Origin: Thunnus maccoyii
Lineage: Eukaryota; Chordata; Actinopteri; Scombriformes; Scombridae
Direction of reading: 5' to 3'
DNA: 64,000 nucleotides
Assembly (NCBI RefSeq): GCF_910596095.1
Contig: NC_056550.1
Span: 4,216,001 to 4,280,000, forward strand
Of this stretch, positions 12,204 through 51,597 are shown in pieces (within the stretch, counting starts at the first letter, position 1; each line of letters starts with the position of its first letter). Made by a program: the position numbers and the translations under genes. The notes under the pieces were generated by a model, which searched no databases, was not told where the DNA came from, and was given only the letters and a program-made list of their open reading frames with translations.

Positions 12204-12404
12204 TCTGTATTTTCACCTCTGCCTGGTGATCAGATTGATGTAGTGTCTCAGGGCAGTGTAGTACTTGGCCAGCTCTTCGGGTGGGGCGTCTTCACCGGGG
12301 TTCTCAGGTTTGGGGGGGTAGGCATCTGCCACCATTCCCAGACACACCAGCACACACAGCACAACAGCCACCAGCACTGTCCATGGCTTCAGCATCACGG
12401 CCAT
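7427..12404 (-). CDS. pyya: peptide YY precursor (prepro-PYY), 3 coding exons
   Basis: Secreted gut/brain hormone of the NPY family that acts on Y-type G-protein-coupled receptors. The coding parts are 12217-12404, 7563-7643 and 7427-7451, giving 97 residues in all. Residues 1-28 form a hydrophobic signal peptide. The mature peptide starts YPPKPENPG, has the PP-fold helix, and ends LITRQRY, followed by the amidation and cleavage signal GKR. The C-flanking peptide ends YDDSYMW. The final Arg codon of the mature peptide is split between exons, which is the classical NPY/PYY arrangement. A non-coding first exon lies at about 15148-15300, so the layout matches the four-exon family gene. The mature sequence fits fish PYYa as I remember it better than PYYb. 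Splice sites are GT/AG and the phases agree. Confidence 0.93.
7563..7643 (-). CDS. pyya: PYY coding exon: last Tyr, GKR and C-flanking peptide
   Basis: Follows a TTGCAG acceptor and ends at a GTAGAG donor. It encodes the C-terminal Tyr of the hormone, the amide-donor Gly, the dibasic KR site and most of the C-flanking peptide ([14 protein letters not shown] and onward). 81 nt. Confidence 0.92.
7801..8250. repeat. dispersed 'GCTAAC' repeat with inverted ends
   Basis: Inside PYY intron 2. It begins AGCCATGCTAGC and ends with a near-complementary copy of that string. The interior repeats GCTAAC/GCATGCTAAC and carries the phrase 'ccaatagttgttgacatatttcagt'-like sequence also found at about 25900 and 26320. 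It is probably an old non-autonomous DNA element. Confidence 0.6.
9244..9285. repeat. (GT)n microsatellite
   Basis: About 21 TG units, within PYY intron 2. Confidence 0.95.
12147..12201. repeat. (TA)n microsatellite beside a PYY splice donor
   Basis: An alternating TA/TATG repeat that ends about 15 bases inside intron 2, counted from the donor of the hormone-coding exon. Confidence 0.95.
12217..12404 (-). CDS. pyya: PYY signal peptide and mature hormone exon
   Basis: The ATG at 12404 lies directly after a TTCCAG acceptor, so the first exon is non-coding. It encodes the 28-residue signal peptide and 34 full residues plus two bases of the 35th residue of the 36-residue hormone. The donor is GTGAAA. 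A second in-frame Met at codon 4 is an alternative start. Confidence 0.95.
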
Positions 12405-13228
12405 CTGGAACAGGGCGACAAAATGAGAGGAGTTATAGATGCTGAGGGTCCAATGTTGTGAATGAACACCTAATAAGATAATGAAGATCTGAATTTCTTT
12501 AAAATAAATATTTTTGTAAATTGATTTTTTTCTGTTGATGGTTGATTATGGTCATTGAACAGTCCCATTGGTAAGAATTATGAACAGGATAAAAAGTTGG
12601 AAATGACAAATGTATTTTGTTAAAAATCAATACGTAAAAGAAAATATCACCTCCTATTACAGATGTTTGATTGAATTAACCCCAGAAATTGAAAAAAGGA
12701 AAGAGAGAGTGATGGAGACATGAGGGCTGATAAAGACATTTTCTCTTTCTCCCCTAATGAGAAAATCATTTGGTGTGTGTCAAACCTCTTCTGAGGGGTG
12801 CAGAGGGAAAAAATTTGTTTTCCTAGGACATGTCTGCTCAGTCTAAGTTGTCCGATGAGTAAATAGAGGTGTGTGAAGCAGTGAAACAAATCAATATAAT
12901 GTATATTGGGTAAAGAAAAAAAAAACCTTCAGCCTGTGGATTGACATATTGTCAGACTCCCCTGGCTGAGTGTTGTTTAGTTCCAGGGAAAGATGAAGAA
13001 AATGGATTGACTCCAGAGGAGGAAACTAATTTCACACATCATCAAGGAGGCAGAGGGCTTGATGGTTGGTATGAAATGGACATAATTTATGATAGCATGC
13101 TGCATGTGTAAGATGTGTTGATAATATTTGGTACGCTGTTGTGGTAGCTTGATTTCCATTCCAGTGTATGATGAAGCAGTTATATCTTTATAAGCTTTAG
13201 GGACATTATCATCATGACTACACAACTG

Positions 13229-35078: not shown

Positions 35079-36285
35079 GATCATTTCTTTGTTGTAACAA
35101 TGCTTCTTGGCAATAAATCTTATACCATTGGAAAGCCTGTTTATTTCCCTTTTAAATGGTGCCACATTTGTAAGGAACATGCATTTGTGTGATGAGCAGC
35201 AGAGCTAAGTATGTGGCTTGCGCCCATGAAAAATTTGCCAAATCTTCTCTGCCAATGCCAAACAGCTCATTTTGCTGTTGCTATTGACTCTTGTTTTGAG
35301 CTTCTGGTACCCCCAGGTGCTGCCAGGAGGCCTGCCATGACTGCCCTTCACCGTCAGTCCTGTTTGCGCTGGTGTCGGCAACAGGTGCACTGGAACCTGA
35401 ACATGTGGAGGAACGTTATGTTCAACGATGAGTCCAGATTCTGCCTATGGCAGTTGGATCGTAGGGTCAAAGTGTGGAAAAGACACGGACAACGCTATGC
35501 TGATTGCTGCACCGATAGAGTAGCATATTTGGTGGAGGCAGTGTGATGGTGTAGGGCGGCATCTCCCTCACTGGAAAAACTAAGCTTGTCATCATTGGAG
35601 GCAATCTCAATGAAGAGAGATATTGAGATGAGATTCTGCAACCAGTGGCAATCCCATATCTCCACAGTCTGGGACCGAACTCTATCCTCCAAGATGACAA
35701 TGCTCACCCCCACAGAGCGAGGTTTATCAGTGAGTACCTCCAGAATTTGGGAGTGGAGAGGATGGAATGGCCTGCCAGCACCTCAACCCCATTGAACACT
35801 TGTGGGATCAGCTTGGGCATGCTGTTCATGCCAGAGTGACCAACACAACCACGTTGGCTGACTTGCAACAAATGCTGGTTGAAGAATGGGATGCCATCCA
35901 ACAGCAGTGTGTGACCAGGCTGGTGACCAGCATGAAGAGGAGGTGCCAGGCTGTTGTGGCTGTGTATGGTTCTTCTACACACTACTGAGGCTCCTGTTTG
36001 TTAAATGAATAAATTGATAAATTGCCAATATTTCTTGTTTCTTCAAACTTCAATCATCCAATCCACAAAACACCAAATAATGTCAATGGCAGAATAAACT
36101 GTTTGGCATTGGCAAAAAAGATTTGGCAAATTTTTCATGGGCACAACCCACATACTCAGCTCTGCTGCTCATCCCACATATGCATGTTCCTTACAAATGT
36201 GGCACCATTTAAAAGGGAAATAAACAGGCTTTCCAACAGTATAAGATTTATTGCCAAGAAGCATTGTTACAACAAAGAAATGATC
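35079..36285 (+). mobile_element. Tc1-like DNA transposon with 187-bp inverted repeats
   Basis: The terminal repeats 35079-35265 and 36099-36285 are both 187 bases and about 95% identical by hand count (roughly 9 mismatches). Between them lies a decayed transposase. About 1.2 kb in total. The outer ends may extend slightly further but diverge beyond these points. Confidence 0.85.
35320..35988 (+). pseudogene. Tc1-like transposase, N-terminal part missing, frame broken
   Basis: Tc1/mariner transposases cut and paste DNA with a DDE/D catalytic triad. The three acidic blocks are visible in order: VMFNDESRFCLW (about 35420), ILQDDNAHPHRAR (about 35690) and LNPIEHLWDQLGHA (about 35775). They fall in different frames. 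An apparent frameshift occurs near 35530, and a TGG-to-TAG type stop stands where the family has MVWGG (about 35548). There are further breaks before the last block. The paired-type DNA-binding region normally found at the N-terminus is absent, since the left inverted repeat ends just before the catalytic core. Not functional. Confidence 0.85.
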
Positions 36286-38124: not shown

Positions 38125-38587
38125 TTAGTCTGTGTGGTCCTCCTCTGTCTTGTCCTTGGTGATGGGAAATTCCAACGATGTCCTGAACCGAATGGGCACC
38201 TCATGCTCTTCACTGATTGGCTGTTTGGCCACAGGGGCGTGGATACGCAGCTGTCCGTCATCCATCAGGGAGCAGGATAGGCCGGACAGATCCAGGTGAG
38301 GAGGCAAGTCGATCTTTTGGGCAAATCCCATCTGAGAGGAGGCCGAGGAGCAGAAGGAAGCGCTGGAGGAGGAGGAGGAGCAGGACTGAGTCTCCTCGGC
38401 TCCGGCCTGCTTCATGGCCACCACTGCCAGGCTGCGCCCCTCCAGTTTGACTGTGATGTCACTGGGGGCATAACCGCGTGCATCTAGGGTCACCAGGAGG
38501 TCACTGTTGTTTTCTGTATCCTGCAGGGCTTCCTTTTGCAGCTCTGAGCTGGGAGTTTCTTTCAGCTGCTCTTTACCGTCACTCAGC
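38125..38587 (-). CDS. small HSP exon 2 (crystallin domain and tail)
   Basis: Begins after a TTTCAG acceptor. It encodes the linker, the alpha-crystallin domain with its serine insert and an acidic tail ending EEDHTD, then TAA. Confidence 0.85.
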
Positions 38588-38921
38588 CTGAAAGAGAATC
38601 AGAATCTGGATCAAAATCAGCTCCCTGACTCTACTGGTCTAAAACATAAGCCAGGCAAGGTGTAGCTACTTCTGAGATAGCCAGTTACTGTACATACCTG
38701 GAGAAAGAGGAGGAAATGAAGGGCAAAGGGCTAAGTTTGAGCAGGTGGGGCCCATTGTGAAGCTCCCTCAGGAGGCTGTTGGCCAGCGTGACTCTGCGGT
38801 TGAAGAAGTCTTGCTGCAGCGAGGAGAGAGACTCATGATGCAGCGGCCACAGCAGCCGCTCCTGGCTGAAGAAAGGGTCATTGCCAAACAGGCTGTTCAA
38901 GGCTGCGTGCTGGGACATCAT
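38125..38921 (-). CDS. small heat-shock protein, hsp30/hspb9-like, 2 exons
   Basis: ATP-independent chaperone of the alpha-crystallin family, expected in cytosol/nucleus. Exon 1 is 38698-38921 and exon 2 is 38125-38587. The donor is GTATGT, the acceptor TTTCAG, and the phase fits (Arg codon split). About 228 residues starting at the ATG pair (38921 or 38918); no ATG is in frame further upstream. The N-terminal region is rich in Leu/Phe, with a WPLHHE string. The crystallin domain runs from LLVTLDARGYAPSDITVKLE to GQLRIHAP. A run of serines (CSSSSSSASFCSSASS) sits in the loop where other family members have a short linker. The FAQKIDLPP string, lacking the alphaB Arg, resembles fish hsp30 proteins. 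In human, HSPB9 and PYY are both on 17q21, so hspb9 is the leading candidate name, unproven. Confidence 0.85.
38698..38921 (-). CDS. small HSP exon 1 (N-terminal arm)
   Basis: Starts at ATGATGTCCCAG and ends ISSSFS plus two bases before a GTATGT donor. Confidence 0.82.
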
Positions 38922-39100
38922 GTCAGAAGACAGTTCTTGATAAAAACCTTGTTTATAAGGCAAGCTATGAGTGTTGCGTATCCTTGCCGCTTTGGCTTGA
39001 GATTCTTCAGATTCCCCTTCTCAGACTTGATATCTCAAGGCTCCAGTGAAGAGTAAGAGCTCAGAGTCTCTTAAGTTTCTTCTGTGTTGTTAGTCCTCTT

Positions 39101-42710: not shown

Positions 42711-43096
42711 TTAGCCTACATTTACATAGTCATCTTCATCATCACTGGTTTCTTCTTCATCATCTTCTTCCTCTTCGTTGTCCTCTACACCGTGACAGAA
42801 CTCCTCGGCATTTATGTAATTCACATCACTGTCCACGTCTTCATAATCACAACCTTCGTCCTCCACACTGTGACAGAACTCCTCGGCATTTATGTAATTC
42901 ACATCCCTGTCCACGTCTTCATAATCATGACCTTCGTCACTCTCTGGCTGCTCATAATCATCACTCTCCTCTTCCTCCACTCCGCATGCTTGCTCTTTGA
43001 GTTTCATTTTGGTGCTCACTGGCTCAACGTTCTCATAGTCTTCCTCCTCCTCCTCATCCTCATCATCGCCGTAATGGTTCTCAACACTGACAGCCA
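42711..43096 (-). CDS. gene A cytoplasmic tail exon
   Basis: Follows a TTTCCAG acceptor. It encodes 127 residues, very rich in Glu/Asp, with eight Tyr. Residues about 637-685 are two copies of a 26-residue module, encoded by the 78-bp tandem repeats 42781-42858 and 42859-42936. Ends DDYVNVG and TAA. Confidence 0.88.
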
Positions 43097-46000
43097 CTGG
43101 AAACCCGATCATTGGAACAAAAATGTGTCATGAATGTGAAATCAGTTTGTTAAAAGCACAAAATTCTTTGGATGAAAGTGTGTAGTGAAAACTGAGGAAT
43201 TGTGTATCCTGGTGAGCACAGACCTGGAGTCAGAGCGAGGGCTACGGGCTGTTTGGCTTGTCGTCTTCTCCTGCGGACCAGACAGACCACCAACAAGACC
43301 AGCAGGAGCAGCAGCAGACTCCCAGCGGCTACTGAAGACATCAACAGCAACAACGGCACTATAGGAGGAAAAAACATAGTCAAGGTTATGTTCGTTCTTC
43401 AAAACATACCTGATACTCTACAAGTATAATTTACTCCACAAGTAACTGCTGCAAGATTGTTTCACTGACAGAACTTCTACACTTTTTTATGAGAGTACTT
43501 TACTACTGTTTGGCTCACCTGCAGTTGTCTGTCAACATTCTCAGTCATCCAAATGCAGCTGGACTTGCTTTACATTCTTGAAAACCAATCATCTCTCATC
43601 CTAAAGACTTTTTCAGTTCTGACTGACTGGGGGGAGTCCCAGGCATTAACCCTCTTCAGGATTAACACATTGGGTCATTCACACAGTTGTATATGAATTG
43701 TTTTTGTTGGGTTTTTTTTTTTTTTTTGTAGAACTGAGTTTCATTGTGTGTGAACACACCTTAACAACAATACATAGGCCTACATTTAGAAAATTTTAAT
43801 GTAATGTAGTGTTTGGGTGCAATGAGGAAGCACTCAACCATTTAGAGATATTTTATATGGTATTTATTTGTTCTTTTTTCCGTCTTTCATGACTATACAA
43901 AACTGCATCCTCTGCATACACTTGCACTTTAGTTCCAGAACAGTCTGCAGGCAGGTCCTCTATACCAGTGGTTCTCAAACTTTTTCCTGTCAAGCACCCC
44001 TAAACTGACACAAAATAGACCATGGACCTCCATTTGATATTTTTTGTCCAAGGGTCCCCAATGTGATAGGATTTTTGCTTTTAGATGTTTTATTACAGAA
44101 AGTCTATAAAACCCTTGACCAAAATAGTCAGACATTCTGTCATTGTGTTACTTATAGATGGAATTACAGTGAAAATAAATTATTCCCTTTTTTGCTTGGG
44201 ACTCCCTGGAACCCTCTTAAGGACCCCTGGGGGTCCCCAGACCCCACTTTGAGAACCACTGCTCTATACAGACTGTAAACGGATTGTGTAAGAATAAGGT
44301 AAATTGGTGGATCCCAGTGTTGTACAGGAGGGACCATTTGGCCGCTGTTAATGAAATAATATTTAATCCAGGAAAGTGCTTCATTAACTTAACATCCAGT
44401 TTTTCCCTTTTTTTAAATTTCCATTTAAATAGCTTTTTAAGGTTAGAAAAATATCTTACTTCACTCTGTCTGACAGTATCGAATATATTGTGCCTCATCC
44501 TGTTTTATCTCTTCATTGAAACTATGTATGATGTTAACACTCCCAGTCCCCCGGCCATGGACCAGTGCCAGACCATCAAACATTTGCAACCAGGTCACAA
44601 GGAAATAATATTTTGGGGTTTTGGGGCAAAAAACAATGAAAAACAATTATGTAACATTACAGTCAAGTAAATTAAAGTCAGCCCTCAAAGGGCTTTACAA
44701 TCTGTACAGCACATAACACCCTCTATCCTAGGTTCAGTGAACATGGCACAGTCTGCGTTTTTTCTCATCACTACTCAACCATTCACCTAACAACAATAAC
44801 TGTCACCACCATCTTTACGCACGCAGCAGTTCATGAAATCAGTATAAAGCCAGTTGTTTGCTGAAAGGTCTATTTGTATTTTTTTTAAATTTAGTAAGTA
44901 AACACAATAGAATACAGACCACATAAGTTCAGTTTCTGTTTCTTGTTTAGTTTCGTTTTTATGCTCGCCCACGCTCTGTTTTGTGTGTTCCTGTTTCTCT
45001 GTGTGTGTGTGTCTCTATGCTGTTCTCTAATTTATATCGAGGCTTTTCGGTGTGGTGGGAGGATAAATAGAAGGAGATCATGCCTGAACCAAAACTTCGG
45101 TGGTTGATAATTACAGTATGTATGTGAACCCACAAACTTTATCTTCCAGTGTGCGTACTGAAAGGGTATGGAGAGTAATTAGCACCAGTGGGTCATATTT
45201 AGTTGTGTTTAAGTTAACAATATAAATAGGTTATGTGACTCTGGTACATTGGCAAATGTATCATTCAGCTATTGTTCATAAAATATATCAATGCATAGCT
45301 TAAATTCTACAGTCTACTTACATGTAATGATGACAATAATCGGTGCTGTCTCTGTTGAACTGAACTTCTGCCCAGACAGAGTGACTTCATACACACAGCT
45401 GTAGTTGCCCTGGTGTTCATACTCAGCCTCAGGGAAGTTAAAGGAGGCTGAGAGGTTGACTGCTGGCTTTGTGTAATTAACGTTGGAGCCAGAGAAGATG
45501 AGAGAGAAATGGCCTTCACGATAGATGGAGTTAATGGAGCAGGTGAAGACAAAGCTGGAACTCCTGGTGACCTCTGCACCCTCAGGACCCCAGACCAGCT
45601 TTCTGTTAGGAGATGTCAGGGAGATACTGGGCTGCTGCAGTCTCACTGGGTAGAAAAAAGGGTACACAGGATTTAAAAAATATACATTTTTTTAAAAATA
45701 TACATTTAAAAAAATATACATTTTTAAATCAGCAAAGATGAGATTTATTCTGAATTCTGGATATTCAAGCTAAATTATTCTAAAAAAAACATTTCACAAG
45801 ACAATCAATGCATTTTTCTAAAAATGAAAGAAAAATGAAGGTAAAAACAAAGAACCGAGGATAAGTGATGATACTATGATTTTCACTTGGAAGTGTGTGT
45901 AGCACTGGAATAATTATAGACTTTTTAGTTGATGATTATTATCATTCGATACACTGATTTGCTTTGAAAAACATAAATGTTAAATAAAATTAGCTTGCTT

Positions 46001-49000
46001 ATGTATTAATAAATATTGGCAAAACATCTTAAAATTATCATTTAAATGCCAATTAAGAATTTTACAATACTATTATTCTAATAAAATAATGAAAGGAGAA
46101 AAAATTGACAGAATTAATATTAAAAAAAAACATACTTTTGAACATATTCAGAGGGCTTTTATATTTTTCTTGCTGTTCCATTTACTAACATGCCTTCTTC
46201 TAATAATTATTAAGCAACCTGATCTGTTGTAATGTTTAGTTTTTTAAATAACTATGTGTTATAGGTATATAGCTGCTACCTTAGTGGCAGCTAATAGAGA
46301 TCCAAATAAAGAATAAGAATTTTCCTTTTTATTGCTTTTCATAGAGCTTGACTGCTTCCAAGTCTTCGTGCAGAGAGGTGAAAATGAGATCAGTCTTCTC
46401 ATTAAACTCAAAACAGTAAAAAAACAAATATAATTGTTGCCAAAATGCAGACAAAGACAATGCGATTTTGTGTGTGTGGTGTTTATGGACATTATTGTTC
46501 CATGTGCAACAGAAAGGGAGCCACTTATCAATGGAAAACAGTGAAATCTCTGGGGTCACCTCAGAAAACAAAGCAATGAAGAATAGCAATGAACCTTCTT
46601 GGAAACCATTTGACTGGTTATTTGTTTTCTATTTTGAAACTTAAGCGACATTCCAGTTGCAGTTTGACTTCTCACTTTATACTAAAACATGGCCGTTTCC
46701 TCTTGTTCTTTAGCTTTTTATATTCTTAATGACATGTCACTTAAGTTTTTCAGCAGCTACATAAAATATTTTGAAGGGAGATTTTAGGATTGTCTTCACT
46801 CTTACTAATACTAATTACTTCTAGTGCTGGTTATATAGTATTTTTGAGTTCTTTTAACTTTTTGAAACACAATTTTTAAACATGACAGCAAAAACAGTTG
46901 CATCACAATTTGTTTTGTTATGACGCTAATGCCTTTTATCTTGTGATGTTTTCAGACAGATTTGATGGTGTTGCTGCACTACTGTTGTGTGATTCTTGTT
47001 TTGTTTTATGAGTTAATGTATTGATTAATTTGCTTTTCTTACCAGTGATAGAGAGTCTGACAGAGTCACTTAGAGGGGAGTTGAAGTTTCGTCTTGAACC
47101 ACTTATCTCATACTGACACTGGTACGATCCCTCATTATCAAAGTTCACATTAGGTATGTTGAAGGTAGCAGAGTTGCTACTTGACAATTGGGTCATTCTG
47201 AATGACCCTGAGGTCTTCTTCAGAATGAATGTTCCACCTAAATGCTGAGTTGAGATTGAACAAGTGATGCCGACGTTCTGACCCCAGTTAACCTCACCAG
47301 CAGGATTCATGGAGATGCTGGGCTTTGGGAAGCTCACTGAAAAAGCAACACAATATTAAATGTGTTAAATGTGTTGCCTTTGAGCTGAGCTTTATATTCT
47401 GCACTCTTATTAAGTTGCTTGATTTCCATTGATTATATACACAAGTGAATAAAACATCAAGACTTAGATCTTACCAGTAACAGAGAGTGTGACAGAGTCA
47501 CTCAGGGGGGAGCTGAATGATTGACTTGAAATGCTTTTCTCATACTGACACTGGTACGATCCCTCATTATCAAAGTTCACATTAGGGATGTTGAAGGTTG
47601 CAGGGTTTCTACTTGATGTTTGAGTTTGTCTGTATGAACCTGAGGTCTTCTTCAGATTGAATGTTCCACCTGAAAGCTGAGTTGAGACTGAACAAGTGAT
47701 GCCGACGTTCTGACCCCAGCTAACCTCACCAGCAGGATTCATGGAGATGCTGGGCTTTGGGAGATCCACTGAAAAAAAAAGCACAGTAATCAATGTGAGT
47801 CACAGCATTCAGTGTTATATCATTGATTCACATTTGCTTTGCCTTTTATTTCAGAGCTCAGTGAGCATGTAGTGGTAAAGCAACCACCTGAGGCAACTAT
47901 TGTGGGCAGAATTTGACACACATCAACTATCAAATAATCACCAAGTCACAAGCTTTGTTTATCCAATCCTTAAATTGGATTCATGATAAATGATTAAAAA
48001 AATAATAAAAAAAACAACATATGTATAAGGCACTCCCGTCTCTTTTAGCTTTATTATATTTCAGCCTCTTAACAAGTTCTAACTGGGGGAGTCATGATCA
48101 TTTACTTGTTATATACAGTGACAATAAAAACATATAAAACGTAAATGTTCTGCATTGAAAATCCAACTTCAGTGAAACTAAACAAGTAGTACATGTACTT
48201 AAAGTAAGCAGTTAATTTTATCTACTTTATACACATTTAAGTAATTTATTCTTGTGGTTCCAAACTTAGGGGTCAGGCCCCTCCAATAGGTCATCATATA
48301 AATCTGAGGGGTCGAGGCATGATTAACGGGAGAGGAAAGAAGAAAAAACAAAGTTCCGCCACACAAATGATAATCTTTTCTCTCTTTTTTTTAAAAGGGG
48401 ACATATTACTACATACTATATTTATATTCTAGGGCTCTCTTGGAATATCTTTGCATGATTTACAGTTTAAAAAGGTCTTATACTGACCCTTTTTTGGAAG
48501 CATTTGTACATATTCTTCTTTATACTTTTTTTTACTGACCCTTTATGCAGCCCCTCACTTCAGCCTCTGTCTGAAACAGGCTGTTTTAGCTTCTGTCTCT
48601 CTCAATGAGCCCACTCTGTTCTGATTGGTTAGCTCCCCAAAACTGTGCCTTGACTGACTTCATGTGGCTCATGAGGTTATGCACATACTGCAGTAGTAGT
48701 AGGATTTCACTTTTTGTTCTTTACTTGAAATGGAAACTTATCAAATACATCCATACATGTTTGAGCTGGAAGGTGATTCCAAAATATGAGAGAGGACAAC
48801 GTAAACAACACATGAAAAGACCTTAGCAGTAACCTTAGCAACCAAGGCTACAGAACAGACAGCCATTTGTGGGCAAGTCTGACCTCATCATGAGGAGGAA
48901 GTAGAGGTAACTATGCAGACGAAGTGTTCAGGGCAGGTTGAAGCCCTGGCTTTTGACTTGCAGGGAGCATTTTTTACTTATGTTCACCTCAAGTTTTGGA

Positions 49001-51597
49001 ACTTTGACCATGTTTAACATAAACATCCGACAGCAGTACATAAATAACAGAAAATCACAAAAAGTATAATGTGTACCTTTGAACTTTTATCAAATGTTTA
49101 CTTTTTTATGAAATTTTCCTCTTTGAGTCTCAAACTGTTTATTACTTTAAATTTTGTTTATTATTTTTAATGAAATTGCAGCACTGGAGAAAATGTTCTT
49201 TGGGTGATACTTCAAAGATAGACTGTCAGTGGAGAATTCCTTTAACAGTGTCTCTTAACAGTAACAATATAAAACACTTTCTATATTGGTCCACTTTGGG
49301 GAACTGCTTGGTTTTCCCAAATGTCAGCTTAACATTGTGCAGACTTTATAAAAATCTTGTCAGTGTAGCTTTTCTGCTAAATTAGAAAAGAGTCATTTTG
49401 CAACTATGTGTCTCCTTGTATGTAACACTTTGAGATTAAAGTGATCAGTATTGTGTCACATGGCCCCTCAGACTGCCAATCAGTCTGTTTTTATATTATT
49501 ATAACATACAGTATATCATGTAAGTGATTAAAATGTTTTCTCACCTGAACAGACGACACCAGCGTCCTCACTGTGTTGACAGTTGTGTGTCCCAAATCCA
49601 CTGTGTCGACACTCAGTTAGAGACCTTTCACTGCCTGAACAGCTCACTTCATCAAGCCAGATTTTTCCTGTTCCTTCACCAAAGCGGGCTGATTGAGGGG
49701 CCTCCAGTGACGTCCCACAGCCCAGCTGCCTGCAAACCACCTTAGCATCATTTATGTCCCAGTTGTCATCACAGACTGTTCCCCAGGCGTTGTTGTGATA
49801 GATTTCAACTCTTCCAGAGCACCGAGTGGACCCAGGCCCAGCTAATCTGATCTGATCACCTAGGCACAGAACACAGAAGACAAACTAATAAAGGATAGAA
49901 CAAGTATCTCTTGTGTGTGTATCTTAAGAGCAGTTTTACCAAAACCATTATTATTGATTCTATTAAATGACAGCAAACATTATTAGCAGTAAAAAAAAGT
50001 GATACATGCAGATACATTATCAACACTAAACCAACCACTAGTAATATGAACCTGCACAAACGATTTCAATACATGATATTATATTATCCATTTCACAAGT
50101 AGGTTTTCTGAGACTTGTGGCAGAGTTTGGTGAATCTTGGAGGGAAACACTTGGAGGAGTCACTGTTACTTGGTTTTTATGTCAGAAGCCTTGAACCAGC
50201 AGGGCTTTGAAAAGAGGCTCTAATGAAAAGCAAGGCAAGGCAGCTTTATTTGTATAGCACATTCATACACTGGGACAAGTCAAAGTGCTTTACAGAGTAA
50301 TAGAAATACAGTAAAGGTAAAAGATTTACAATTGAAACGTGGAAATGCACATACAAGAGATACAAAAGATAAAATACTTAAAAAGTATAAAAGATAAAGT
50401 AAAAAAAGGTAAAGTATTTAAAAACCAGTGCAGTTCAAATCAAGTGAAATAGAAAGATCACCGTGTTTTGTTCTAACTCTTGAGACAGCCAGTAGGCCAG
50501 CCCCAGATGTGCGGAGGCTCATATGGCACAAGCATGTCAGAGATGAACAGTATTTGGGACCAGAGCCACAGATTTGTAGAGAAGTAGCAAAGGAGTTTCC
50601 TTATATAGTCCTGTTTGTGCTATCAGATGCTCTTTTCACACACACTCACATCTTGTGCTAAAGCCTTGATGCATGAAGAAAGCAGAAGAGAAGAAGAGGC
50701 CTGAGGTCTGGTTTGGTGGGAAAGGACAGAGGCAGGCTGTATGTACTACATACATGACTGAAAATATTTTGGTAGGAAACATTTTGCAAAAGTTGTCATT
50801 AATATTCCTGCTTGGTATCACTCAAACAGACTGTTGAAGAAACAAACTACTATCGTCACAACTGCCAGTAAGATATAATGCTTTTCACAGTTATCAAATG
50901 CTCGATCCACACTTACATCACAGTTTGATTAACAGTGGATTAAGAAACATTTCACACTTGCTACTCTGCTATTCAATGCGAAAAACATGCTGCAGAAAGT
51001 GGTTGCCAGCTGTTTTTCACTGCTGAATGGTGTTGACACACATCACAAGCCACACTGACTGGATGACACAACTGTTATAAATAAAGGTTTACAGTTATTA
51101 TAAATACTTTATTCAAAAGTTTCTCACCTGAACAAACGACACCAGCGTCCTCACTGTGTCCACAGTCGTGTGTCCCAAATCCACTGTGTCGACACTCAGT
51201 TAGAGACCATTCACTGCCTGAACAGCTCACATCATCAAGCCAGATTTTTCCTGTTCCTTGACCAAATTGGGCTGATTGAAGGGCCTCCAGTGATGTCCCA
51301 CAGCCCAGCTGCCAGCAAACCACCTTAGCATCATTTATGTCCCAGTTGTCATCACAGACTGTTCCCCAGGTATAGCTGTGATAGATTTCAACTCTTCCAG
51401 AGCACCGAGTGGACCCAGGCCCAGCTAATCTGATCTGATCACCTATAAGGCACAAAAGACGTAACACACAAAATTTTACAAATGAAGTAAACACTTAAAA
51501 AAGGATTTTATGCATCACACAGAGGAATGTACTGACCTGAAGCAGTTGAAGTTGAGGTGAGGAGAAGATAGACTATAGGAAAGAAAAAACACGACAT
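42711..51597 (-). CDS. SRCR-Ig type I membrane receptor (gene A), 8 coding exons, 707 aa
   Basis: Predicted leukocyte-type surface receptor. The exons are 51537-51597, 51128-51442, 49545-49859, 47475-47768, 47043-47336, 45322-45645, 43224-43358 and 42711-43096. All introns are phase 1 with GT/AG ends and the total is 2124 nt. Domains: signal peptide about 1-20; SRCR 21-125 and 126-230, each with eight Cys (group B pattern); Ig-like 231-328, 329-426 and 427-534; one transmembrane helix within 535-565 followed by RRRRR; acidic tail 580-707 with tyrosines at 588, 600, 627, 638, 647, 664, 673 and 703. Several of these fit pYxN, an SH2-adaptor (GRB2-like) pattern. CD5/CD6/WC1-type receptors have SRCR but no Ig domains, so the combination is unusual. 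Ligand unknown. The symmetric exons allow domain skipping. A partial paralogue follows at 58882. Confidence 0.88.
42781..42936. repeat. in-frame 78-bp tandem duplication in the tail
   Basis: Two copies (42781-42858 and 42859-42936) that differ at only a few bases. Each encodes a YEDVD(R/S)[12 protein letters not shown] module. Confidence 0.92.
43224..43358 (-). CDS. gene A transmembrane exon
   Basis: 45 codons. The hydrophobic span [14 protein letters not shown] is followed by a five-Arg stop-transfer. Acceptor CCTATAG, donor GTCTGT. Confidence 0.9.
43966..44261. mobile_element. 296-bp hAT-type non-autonomous element with perfect 8-bp target duplication
   Basis: Ends CAGTGGTTCTCAAA (left) and TTTGAGAACCACTG (right). 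It is flanked by CTCTATAC on both sides (43958-43965 and 44262-44269). Lies in an intron of gene A. Confidence 0.9.
45322..45645 (-). CDS. gene A Ig-like domain 3 exon (membrane-proximal)
   Basis: 108 codons starting [10 protein letters not shown], with Ig cysteines in FTCSINS and YSCVYEV. Homologous to the gene B exon 60736-61056. Confidence 0.9.
45646..47042 (-). other. gene A intron between Ig exons 2 and 3
   Basis: AT-rich with no domain. The open frames at 46259-46589 carry nothing recognisable and may be repeat-derived. Confidence 0.5.
47043..47336 (-). CDS. gene A Ig-like domain 2 exon
   Basis: 98 codons starting [10 protein letters not shown]. The conserved Cys residues are in ITCSIST and YQCQYE. 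About 80% identical to the neighbouring Ig1 exon. Confidence 0.92.
47475..47768 (-). CDS. gene A Ig-like domain 1 exon
   Basis: 98 codons starting [10 protein letters not shown]. Same length as Ig2 and clearly a duplicate of it. Acceptor TTTTTCAG, donor GTAAGA. Confidence 0.92.
48395..48990. repeat. dispersed repeat, copy 1
   Basis: In gene A intron 3. It matches 59878-60330 in the same orientation, including 'gagcccactctgttctgatt' and 'ccctttatgcagccc'. The pair could be copies of a mobile repeat or traces of the gene A/B duplication. Confidence 0.6.
49545..49859 (-). CDS. gene A SRCR domain 2 exon
   Basis: 105 codons encoding a full SRCR fold ([19 protein letters not shown] ... DAGVVCSG) with eight Cys. 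About 95% identical in DNA to the SRCR1 exon. Confidence 0.95.
50229..50297 (-). repeat. LINE2/SINE-type 3' tail, antisense
   Basis: 'aaggcagctttatttgtata' and 'caaagtgctttac' are the reverse complement of the common fish L2/SINE tail also seen at 31205-31282. Lies in gene A intron 2. Confidence 0.6.
51128..51442 (-). CDS. gene A SRCR domain 1 exon
   Basis: 105 codons with eight Cys. Begins with [10 protein letters not shown] after a TTATAG acceptor. Donor GTGAGA. Confidence 0.95.
51537..51597 (-). CDS. gene A start codon and signal peptide exon
   Basis: ATG at 51597, hydrophobic [13 protein letters not shown] then STSTAS. It ends one base into a Gly codon at a GTCAGT donor and joins in frame to SRCR1. 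Confidence 0.85.

Follow-up and report, generated by a model that had tools for sequence, protein, structure and literature searches.

A 64,000-nucleotide stretch of the Thunnus maccoyii genome (contig NC_056550.1, here C18, positions 4216001-4280000; the window in what follows) carries on its minus strand a gene, G2, whose product is predicted to be a type I receptor built of a signal peptide, two group B SRCR domains, two LILR-like Ig domains (Ig1 and Ig2), a membrane-proximal Ig domain (Ig3), a transmembrane (TM) segment and an acidic tail. We hold it highly probable that these modules form one gene with the order SRCR-Ig-Ig3-TM-tail. Judged by its sequence, G2 is moreover a member of a lineage-expanded SRCR-Ig family, which was followed in searches of the whole 782-Mb assembly (genome-wide below). 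The preliminary description of this DNA had spliced eight exons with phase-1 junctions into a 707-residue type I protein, and reassembly reproduced this result: the eight exons, from 51597 down to 42711 (Table 1), encode 707 residues without a stop, every intron is GT-AG and seven of seven junctions are in phase 1.

Pfam searches of the joined protein yielded two SRCR stretches (E 4.4e-69) and three ig stretches (E 9.3e-23), confirming the two SRCR and three Ig domains for which a check through InterPro had been proposed. Group B SRCR domains have up to eight cysteines and are encoded in one exon; both SRCR domains of G2 contain eight cysteines, occupy one 315-nt exon each and match PF00530. 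The best phmmer match of the pair was CD163, and CD163/M130 are its nearest solved relatives. For Ig1-Ig3 the nearest solved relatives are PIR-B (E 3e-19) and LILRB2 (E 2.9e-18), and the fold-search rows include KIR2DL3, LAIR-1 and OSCAR; these domains are of the C2 type, closest to LILR/PIR-B/KIR. Plain Foldseek rows for Ig1 were for the most part generic Ig folds. The structure model of Ig3, built from two sequences, is poor (predicted local distance difference test, pLDDT, 44.7), and the Ig3 profile had no match in the PDB at E 0.01. Within G2, the ratio of nonsynonymous to synonymous rates (dN/dS) is 1.03 between SRCR1 and SRCR2 and 0.63 between Ig1 and Ig2. An Ig1-Ig2 query found no relatives in viral contigs, and an SRCR2 query of prokaryote genome contigs returned a single match, weak and confined to residues 60-86, from a Roseovarius metagenome-assembled genome.

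G2 had been described as a single receptor gene. It does have the layout of an SRCR-Ig-TM-tail receptor, but it does not stand alone: the 264 kb around the window hold four such genes (C18:4153984-4377933, about 225 kb), in each of which the SRCR part precedes Ig, Ig3, TM and tail and shares their strand, and relatives occur elsewhere. G1, on the plus strand, has one SRCR domain and encodes 600 residues, with a signal peptide identical to that of G2. The reading frames of both are intact (600 and 707 codons), and their main aligned pieces are 92.6-95.7% identical over introns and exons, with 79.5% identity in a 502-bp piece after the stop; a block of about 1.1 kb that contains SRCR2 (about 50316-49209 in G2) is absent from G1. 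G3, on the minus strand, has its Ig, Ig3, TM and tail at 63404-58882 and runs off the right end of the window; its homologous signal exon, which has an ATG, was located by similarity and overlooked by our signal-exon scan. G4, on the plus strand, contains two SRCR domains, seven Ig2-type domains and Ig3. A signal exon with an in-frame ATG thus precedes SRCR in three of the four genes. The cluster also includes a solitary SRCR exon (C18:4294810-4295112), whose upstream sequence resembles the upstream region and intron of G2; no signal exon was found in the 1.5 kb upstream of it, and it has the look of a remnant of that 5' region.

Genome-wide, the Ig3 query gave 50 matches, from which 11 Ig1/2-type exons of the C18 cluster were set aside to leave 39 Ig3-type places; two neighbours on C2, and likewise two on C6, may be parts of a single gene. 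At least 106 SRCR places were listed (best 150 candidates scored per search; C2 arrays at 30.88-31.06 Mb excluded). On their own strand, 32 of the 39 Ig3-type places have a listed SRCR no more than 6 kb upstream and 36 no more than 15 kb; within 15 kb, none of the 39 has one on the opposite strand and five have one downstream on the same strand. The 150 top-scoring generic Ig_2 places, which represent few independent loci, served as a control, and not one has a listed SRCR in its vicinity: 147 fall within C2:4.43-6.10 Mb, at a distance of 17.6 Mb from the closest listed SRCR, one is on C18, 2.6 Mb from a listed SRCR, and two are on C10, where no SRCR is listed. The C2 region is a very large Ig-receptor cluster in its own right. 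Counting in the reverse direction from 80 C7-type SRCR places (C2 and C17 left out), we found that 50 are followed by an Ig3-type place on their own strand within 15 kb and 57 within 30 kb. The LILR-like Ig1/2 type is rarer, with 13 clear places spread over five genes; 12 of them belong to the C18 cluster and one lies on C17, and all 13 have SRCR upstream within 8 kb.

Outside C18, the domain layout of the family was taken from one place on C17 and one on C7. In the stretch examined, five SRCR domains were seen in the C17 relative, with two more listed upstream; there an SRCR exon is followed, across an 84-bp intron and with an in-frame join, by a LILR-like Ig exon, and then by an Ig3-type domain and a TM segment. 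Since 84 bp is too short for a gene boundary, the SRCR-Ig join is established in kind. The C7 relative consists of SRCR, a divergent SRCR, an Ig3-type domain, TM and a very short tail, which indicates that not all members of the family have a signalling tail. Several relatives are found near contig ends: 11-33 kb (C5), 25-45 kb (C9), 41-60 kb (C11) and 35-50 kb (C14) from the start, and 22-57 kb from the end of C7.

The alternative that two neighbouring genes, one for a secreted SRCR protein and one for an Ig receptor, have been mistaken for one through their shared phase has to be taken up because all exon types are phase 1-1: neighbouring genes would join in frame too, and frame alone proves little. 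A number of observations weigh against a single gene and the family built on it. The SRCR2-Ig1 intron contains five AATAAA, about twice the rate of the strand, a mild point in favour of a boundary there, and a lax signal-exon candidate lies at 50755-50650, in the SRCR1-SRCR2 intron. Between the SRCR and Ig exons of G3, a candidate signal exon (4281516-4281417 on C18) outscores exon 1 of G2, at a threshold that yields three hits per 64-kb strand, and an Ig-only start may exist in that gene; the homologous signal exon of G4 lacks an in-frame ATG. Three of the 39 Ig3-type places have no listed SRCR near upstream (C20:1491328, C6:34868694 and C9:315628, the last with an internal stop), and among the 80 C7-type SRCR places 30 have no downstream Ig3-type place within 15 kb and 23 have none within 30 kb. 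The family therefore seems to hold SRCR genes that lack this Ig, or an Ig too divergent to find, and SRCR arrays away from any Ig3-type place are also what two separate genes would lead one to expect. Two arrays of C7-type SRCR, at C20:698672-737250 and C20:1343953-1354240, have no downstream Ig3-type place within 190 kb.

Against a pair of genes, the Ig part of G2 has no signal exon of its own, even at lax thresholds. The strict scan of the window gave a single candidate on the minus strand, 51597-51537, against a background of one on the plus strand, and looser scans, with up to 26 minus-strand and 20 plus-strand candidates, placed none inside the SRCR2-Ig1 intron. Listed SRCR accompany 36 of 39 Ig3-type places as opposed to 0 of 150 generic ones. 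The order is kept in all four C18 genes and the C17 relative joins SRCR to Ig in frame across 84 bp, which makes a split between 47800 and 49500 very unlikely and upholds the earlier placement of SRCR and Ig in one gene; we give the two-gene alternative very little credence. One locus might instead produce the complete receptor alongside soluble proteins that have only SRCR or only Ig domains, through alternative splicing or intron retention. Read-through of the SRCR2 donor meets a stop within a few codons, which would give a soluble two-SRCR protein, and the second SRCR is not a constant part, G1 having one and G2 two, but nothing in the sequence demands soluble products, and we regard this as possible though rather unlikely. 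That G2 is a decaying pseudogene copy within the tandem cluster is the least probable of these alternatives: the solitary SRCR exon would be in keeping with such decay, but G2 has 707 codons without stop or frameshift, its exon lengths differ from those of G1 by 0, 3 or 9 nt only, and its inner part is constrained. A single gene of SRCR-Ig-Ig3-TM-tail order is thus the reading we retain. A conserved element at 48743-48534 was considered as a promoter inside the intron; it recurs at 60190-59980, in a different intron of G3, and was for this reason read as a repeat, probably a mobile one. The sequence shared by the two introns extends over about 300 bp (48743-48415 and 60190-59903), with pieces 71-78% identical.

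The statement of the preliminary description that Ig domains are absent from the known SRCR leukocyte receptors needs correction, as both domains are reported together in mammalian FCRLS (PMC7940838) and in sponge transcriptomes (PMC6208332). FCRLS, a protein of eutherian mammals, combines Ig-like and SRCR-B domains in a chimera without a TM segment (PMC7940838; also PMC4016189); it shares with G2 the union of Ig-like and group B SRCR domains in one protein, and differs in having no TM, FCRL-type Ig domains, a 21-bp second leader exon and a location near CD5L (PMC7940838). G2, for its part, has N-terminal SRCR domains, Ig domains of the leukocyte receptor complex (LRC) type, a TM exon (43358-43224), a signalling tail and one leader exon. 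The split leader of FCR/FCRL genes with its 21-bp second exon was not found in G2 or G1, where the modelled 61-bp leader exon joins SRCR directly. The order in FCRLS is, as we read PMC7940838, Ig before SRCR. Neither the lack of TM nor the position of SRCR after Ig is seen in G2, and on this comparison G2-type genes and FCRLS are probably of independent origin.

CD163 and WC1 are not known to have Ig domains, and neither is CD6, with its SRCR-only ectodomain; the SRCR pair of G2 is nearest to CD163/M130 among solved structures, and its three Ig domains set G2 apart from CD6. LILR, PIR-B, KIR and CHIR of the LRC, which include the closest solved relatives of Ig1-Ig3, are not known to have SRCR and typically signal through an immunoreceptor tyrosine-based inhibitory motif (ITIM) or partners with an activation motif (ITAM); G2 has none of either, unlike many LRC and LITR members. 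CD6 resembles G2 in being an SRCR receptor with a YxN site in a long tail, and its Y629 binds GADS (PMC5440646). Teleost LITRs are similar as fish LRC/FcR-like Ig receptors, and the available text of three LITR papers contains no occurrence of "SRCR" (PMC4810170, PMC6032007, PMC7404264). The main text of a survey of invertebrate SRCR proteins never uses the term "Ig domain" and mentions "immunoglobulin" once, by way of comparison (PMC10855680). A cod study reports expression of the SRCR gene m130 in CD8-negative T cells that have putative T-cell receptor gamma and delta (PMC9276791). It is not the same gene, but offers a hint as to where such genes may act. No fish SRCR-Ig receptor appeared among the titles and abstract starts of the open-access matches listed, sequence records being outside the scope of that search. 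Fish entries named M130-like or DMBT1-like presumably sometimes hold such proteins.

The preliminary description also proposed tyrosine-based signalling, which should be read more narrowly: the tail has four YxN motifs, but no ITIM, ITAM or switch motif (ITSM). Including the end of exon 7, it comprises 145 residues, 39% of them acidic, and four of its eight tyrosines are in YxN sites (YENV, YINA, YINA, YVNV). YxN sites number four in G1, four in G2, three in G4 and none in G3, and exceed those of shuffled tails in G2 (P 0.0002), G1 (P 0.00015) and G4 (P 0.025). The end of the G2 tail is like LAT Y171, which we take to read DDYVNV. Y629 of CD6 (YXN) binds the SH2 domains of GADS and GRB2 directly, with GADS alone enriched in cells, Y662 serves SLP-76, and the LAT YXN motifs Y171 and Y191 are binding sites for the GADS SH2 domain (PMC5440646). 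Two points speak against a general docking role: YxN is absent from the G3 tail, where one ITIM-like SDYVDV occurs, which shows that the docking motif is not universal, and two of the four YxN sites of G2, both YINA, stem from a 78-nt tandem duplication. We consider docking of adaptors by the YxN sites of G2 an evenly balanced proposition. Inhibitory signalling of the ITIM/SHP type, or uptake only with the acidic tail unphosphorylated, appears unlikely; scavenger receptors often internalise and G3 has its ITIM-like motif, but the motif search found 0 ITIM, 0 ITAM and 0 ITSM in the tails of G1, G2 and G4.

Comparison of G1 and G2 gave 46.5 nonsynonymous and 10.5 synonymous changes in the outer domains (SRCR, Ig1, Ig2), with dN greater than dS (dN and dS 0.058 and 0.037 for SRCR1, 0.089 and 0.076 for Ig1, 0.067 and 0.056 for Ig2). 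The inner part showed 21 nonsynonymous and 14 synonymous changes, with dN below dS (0.021 and 0.041 for Ig3, 0.011 and 0.079 for TM, 0.048 and 0.146 for the tail). This fits a receptor whose ligand-facing side changes while its signalling part is conserved, in a weak contrast drawn from one gene pair (Fisher P 0.027 or 0.052 depending on rounding).

Taken together, G2 is best explained as a leukocyte-type SRCR-Ig receptor with ligand-binding outer domains and an adaptor-docking tail, which we consider likely; what the sequence itself shows is the gene model, the existence of the family and the recurrence of the domain order. The two outer SRCR and two LRC-type Ig domains would bind ligand, the conserved Ig3 serving as a stalk, and we see even odds that this ligand is on a microbial or self surface. 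Clustering by ligand would allow a Src/Syk-type kinase to phosphorylate the acid-flanked tail tyrosines, upon which YENV, the two YINA and YVNV could recruit GADS/GRB2-type SH2 adaptors; the other acidic sites, YEQP and YEDV, may be further SH2 sites. The outcome would be co-stimulatory signalling of the CD6/LAT kind rather than ITIM inhibition. More tentatively, the 36 Ig3-type places with SRCR just upstream, many of them near-identical and several near contig ends, the fast-changing outer domains and the mostly CD6/LAT-like docking tail of the C18 genes could represent an undescribed, lineage-expanded innate receptor system in which single molecules unite ligand recognition in the manner of WC1/CD163 and of LILR/KIR. 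The findings indicate a joining of SRCR and Ig modules outside mammals in a membrane receptor family, in an order opposite to that of FCRLS, and a multiplication of this family. If expressed, the family would provide a germline-encoded set of receptors that differ in their number of domains and may couple ligand binding of the scavenger type to signalling through adaptors. Automatic annotation may divide such genes or give them wrong names.

Table 1. Exons of G2 and of its neighbour G3 (window positions unless marked C18).
Feature	Position	Strand	Remarks
G2 exon 1, signal peptide	51597-51537	-	only minus-strand signal-exon candidate in window at strict threshold; residues identical in paralogue G1
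G2 exon 2, SRCR1, 8 cysteines, single exon	51442-51128	-	Pfam PF00530 E 1.4e-34
G2 exon 3, SRCR2	49859-49545	-	89% identity to SRCR1; Pfam PF00530
G2 exon 4, Ig1, LILR/PIR-B-like C2 type	47768-47475	-	
G2 exon 5, Ig2	47336-47043	-	80% identity to Ig1
G2 exon 6, membrane-proximal Ig3	45645-45322	-	Pfam ig E 3.1e-5, over cut-off; type found at 39 genome places
G2 exon 7, TM segment and RRRRR stop-transfer	43358-43224	-	weak donor, score 1.63
G2 exon 8, acidic tail, 8 Tyr, 4 YxN, no ITIM/ITAM/ITSM	43096-42711	-	
78-nt tandem duplication inside G2 tail, 1 YEDV and 1 YINA per unit	42935-42780	-	units 94% identical; present in G1 too
G3 Ig exon	63404-63102	-	
G3 membrane-proximal Ig exon	61056-60736	-	
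G3 TM exon	59465-59331	-	
G3 tail exon, 4 Tyr, no YxN, 1 ITIM-like SDYVDV	59165-58882	-	
G3 SRCR exon; signal exon	C18:4283648-4283947; ~C18:4284482	-	beyond window

Some further observations concern sequences beside these genes. Large tandem arrays of near-identical SRCR exons (538-bp spacing, for example) occupy C2:30.88-31.06 Mb, far from Ig3-type places, and an SRCR match at C6:34116917-34117165 lies within an open frame of 5143 residues, perhaps masked sequence. Upstream of the SRCR-Ig exons on C7, open frames at C7:33830927-33831755, which may or may not belong to the same gene, resemble what we take to be parts of a von Willebrand A domain. In the window, a minus-strand open frame at 12216-12545 ends in a peptide that we take to be like peptide YY, two minus-strand frames at 38128-39020 presumably encode an HSP30-type small heat-shock protein, and broken plus-strand frames at 35196-35985 read like a Tc1-type transposase.

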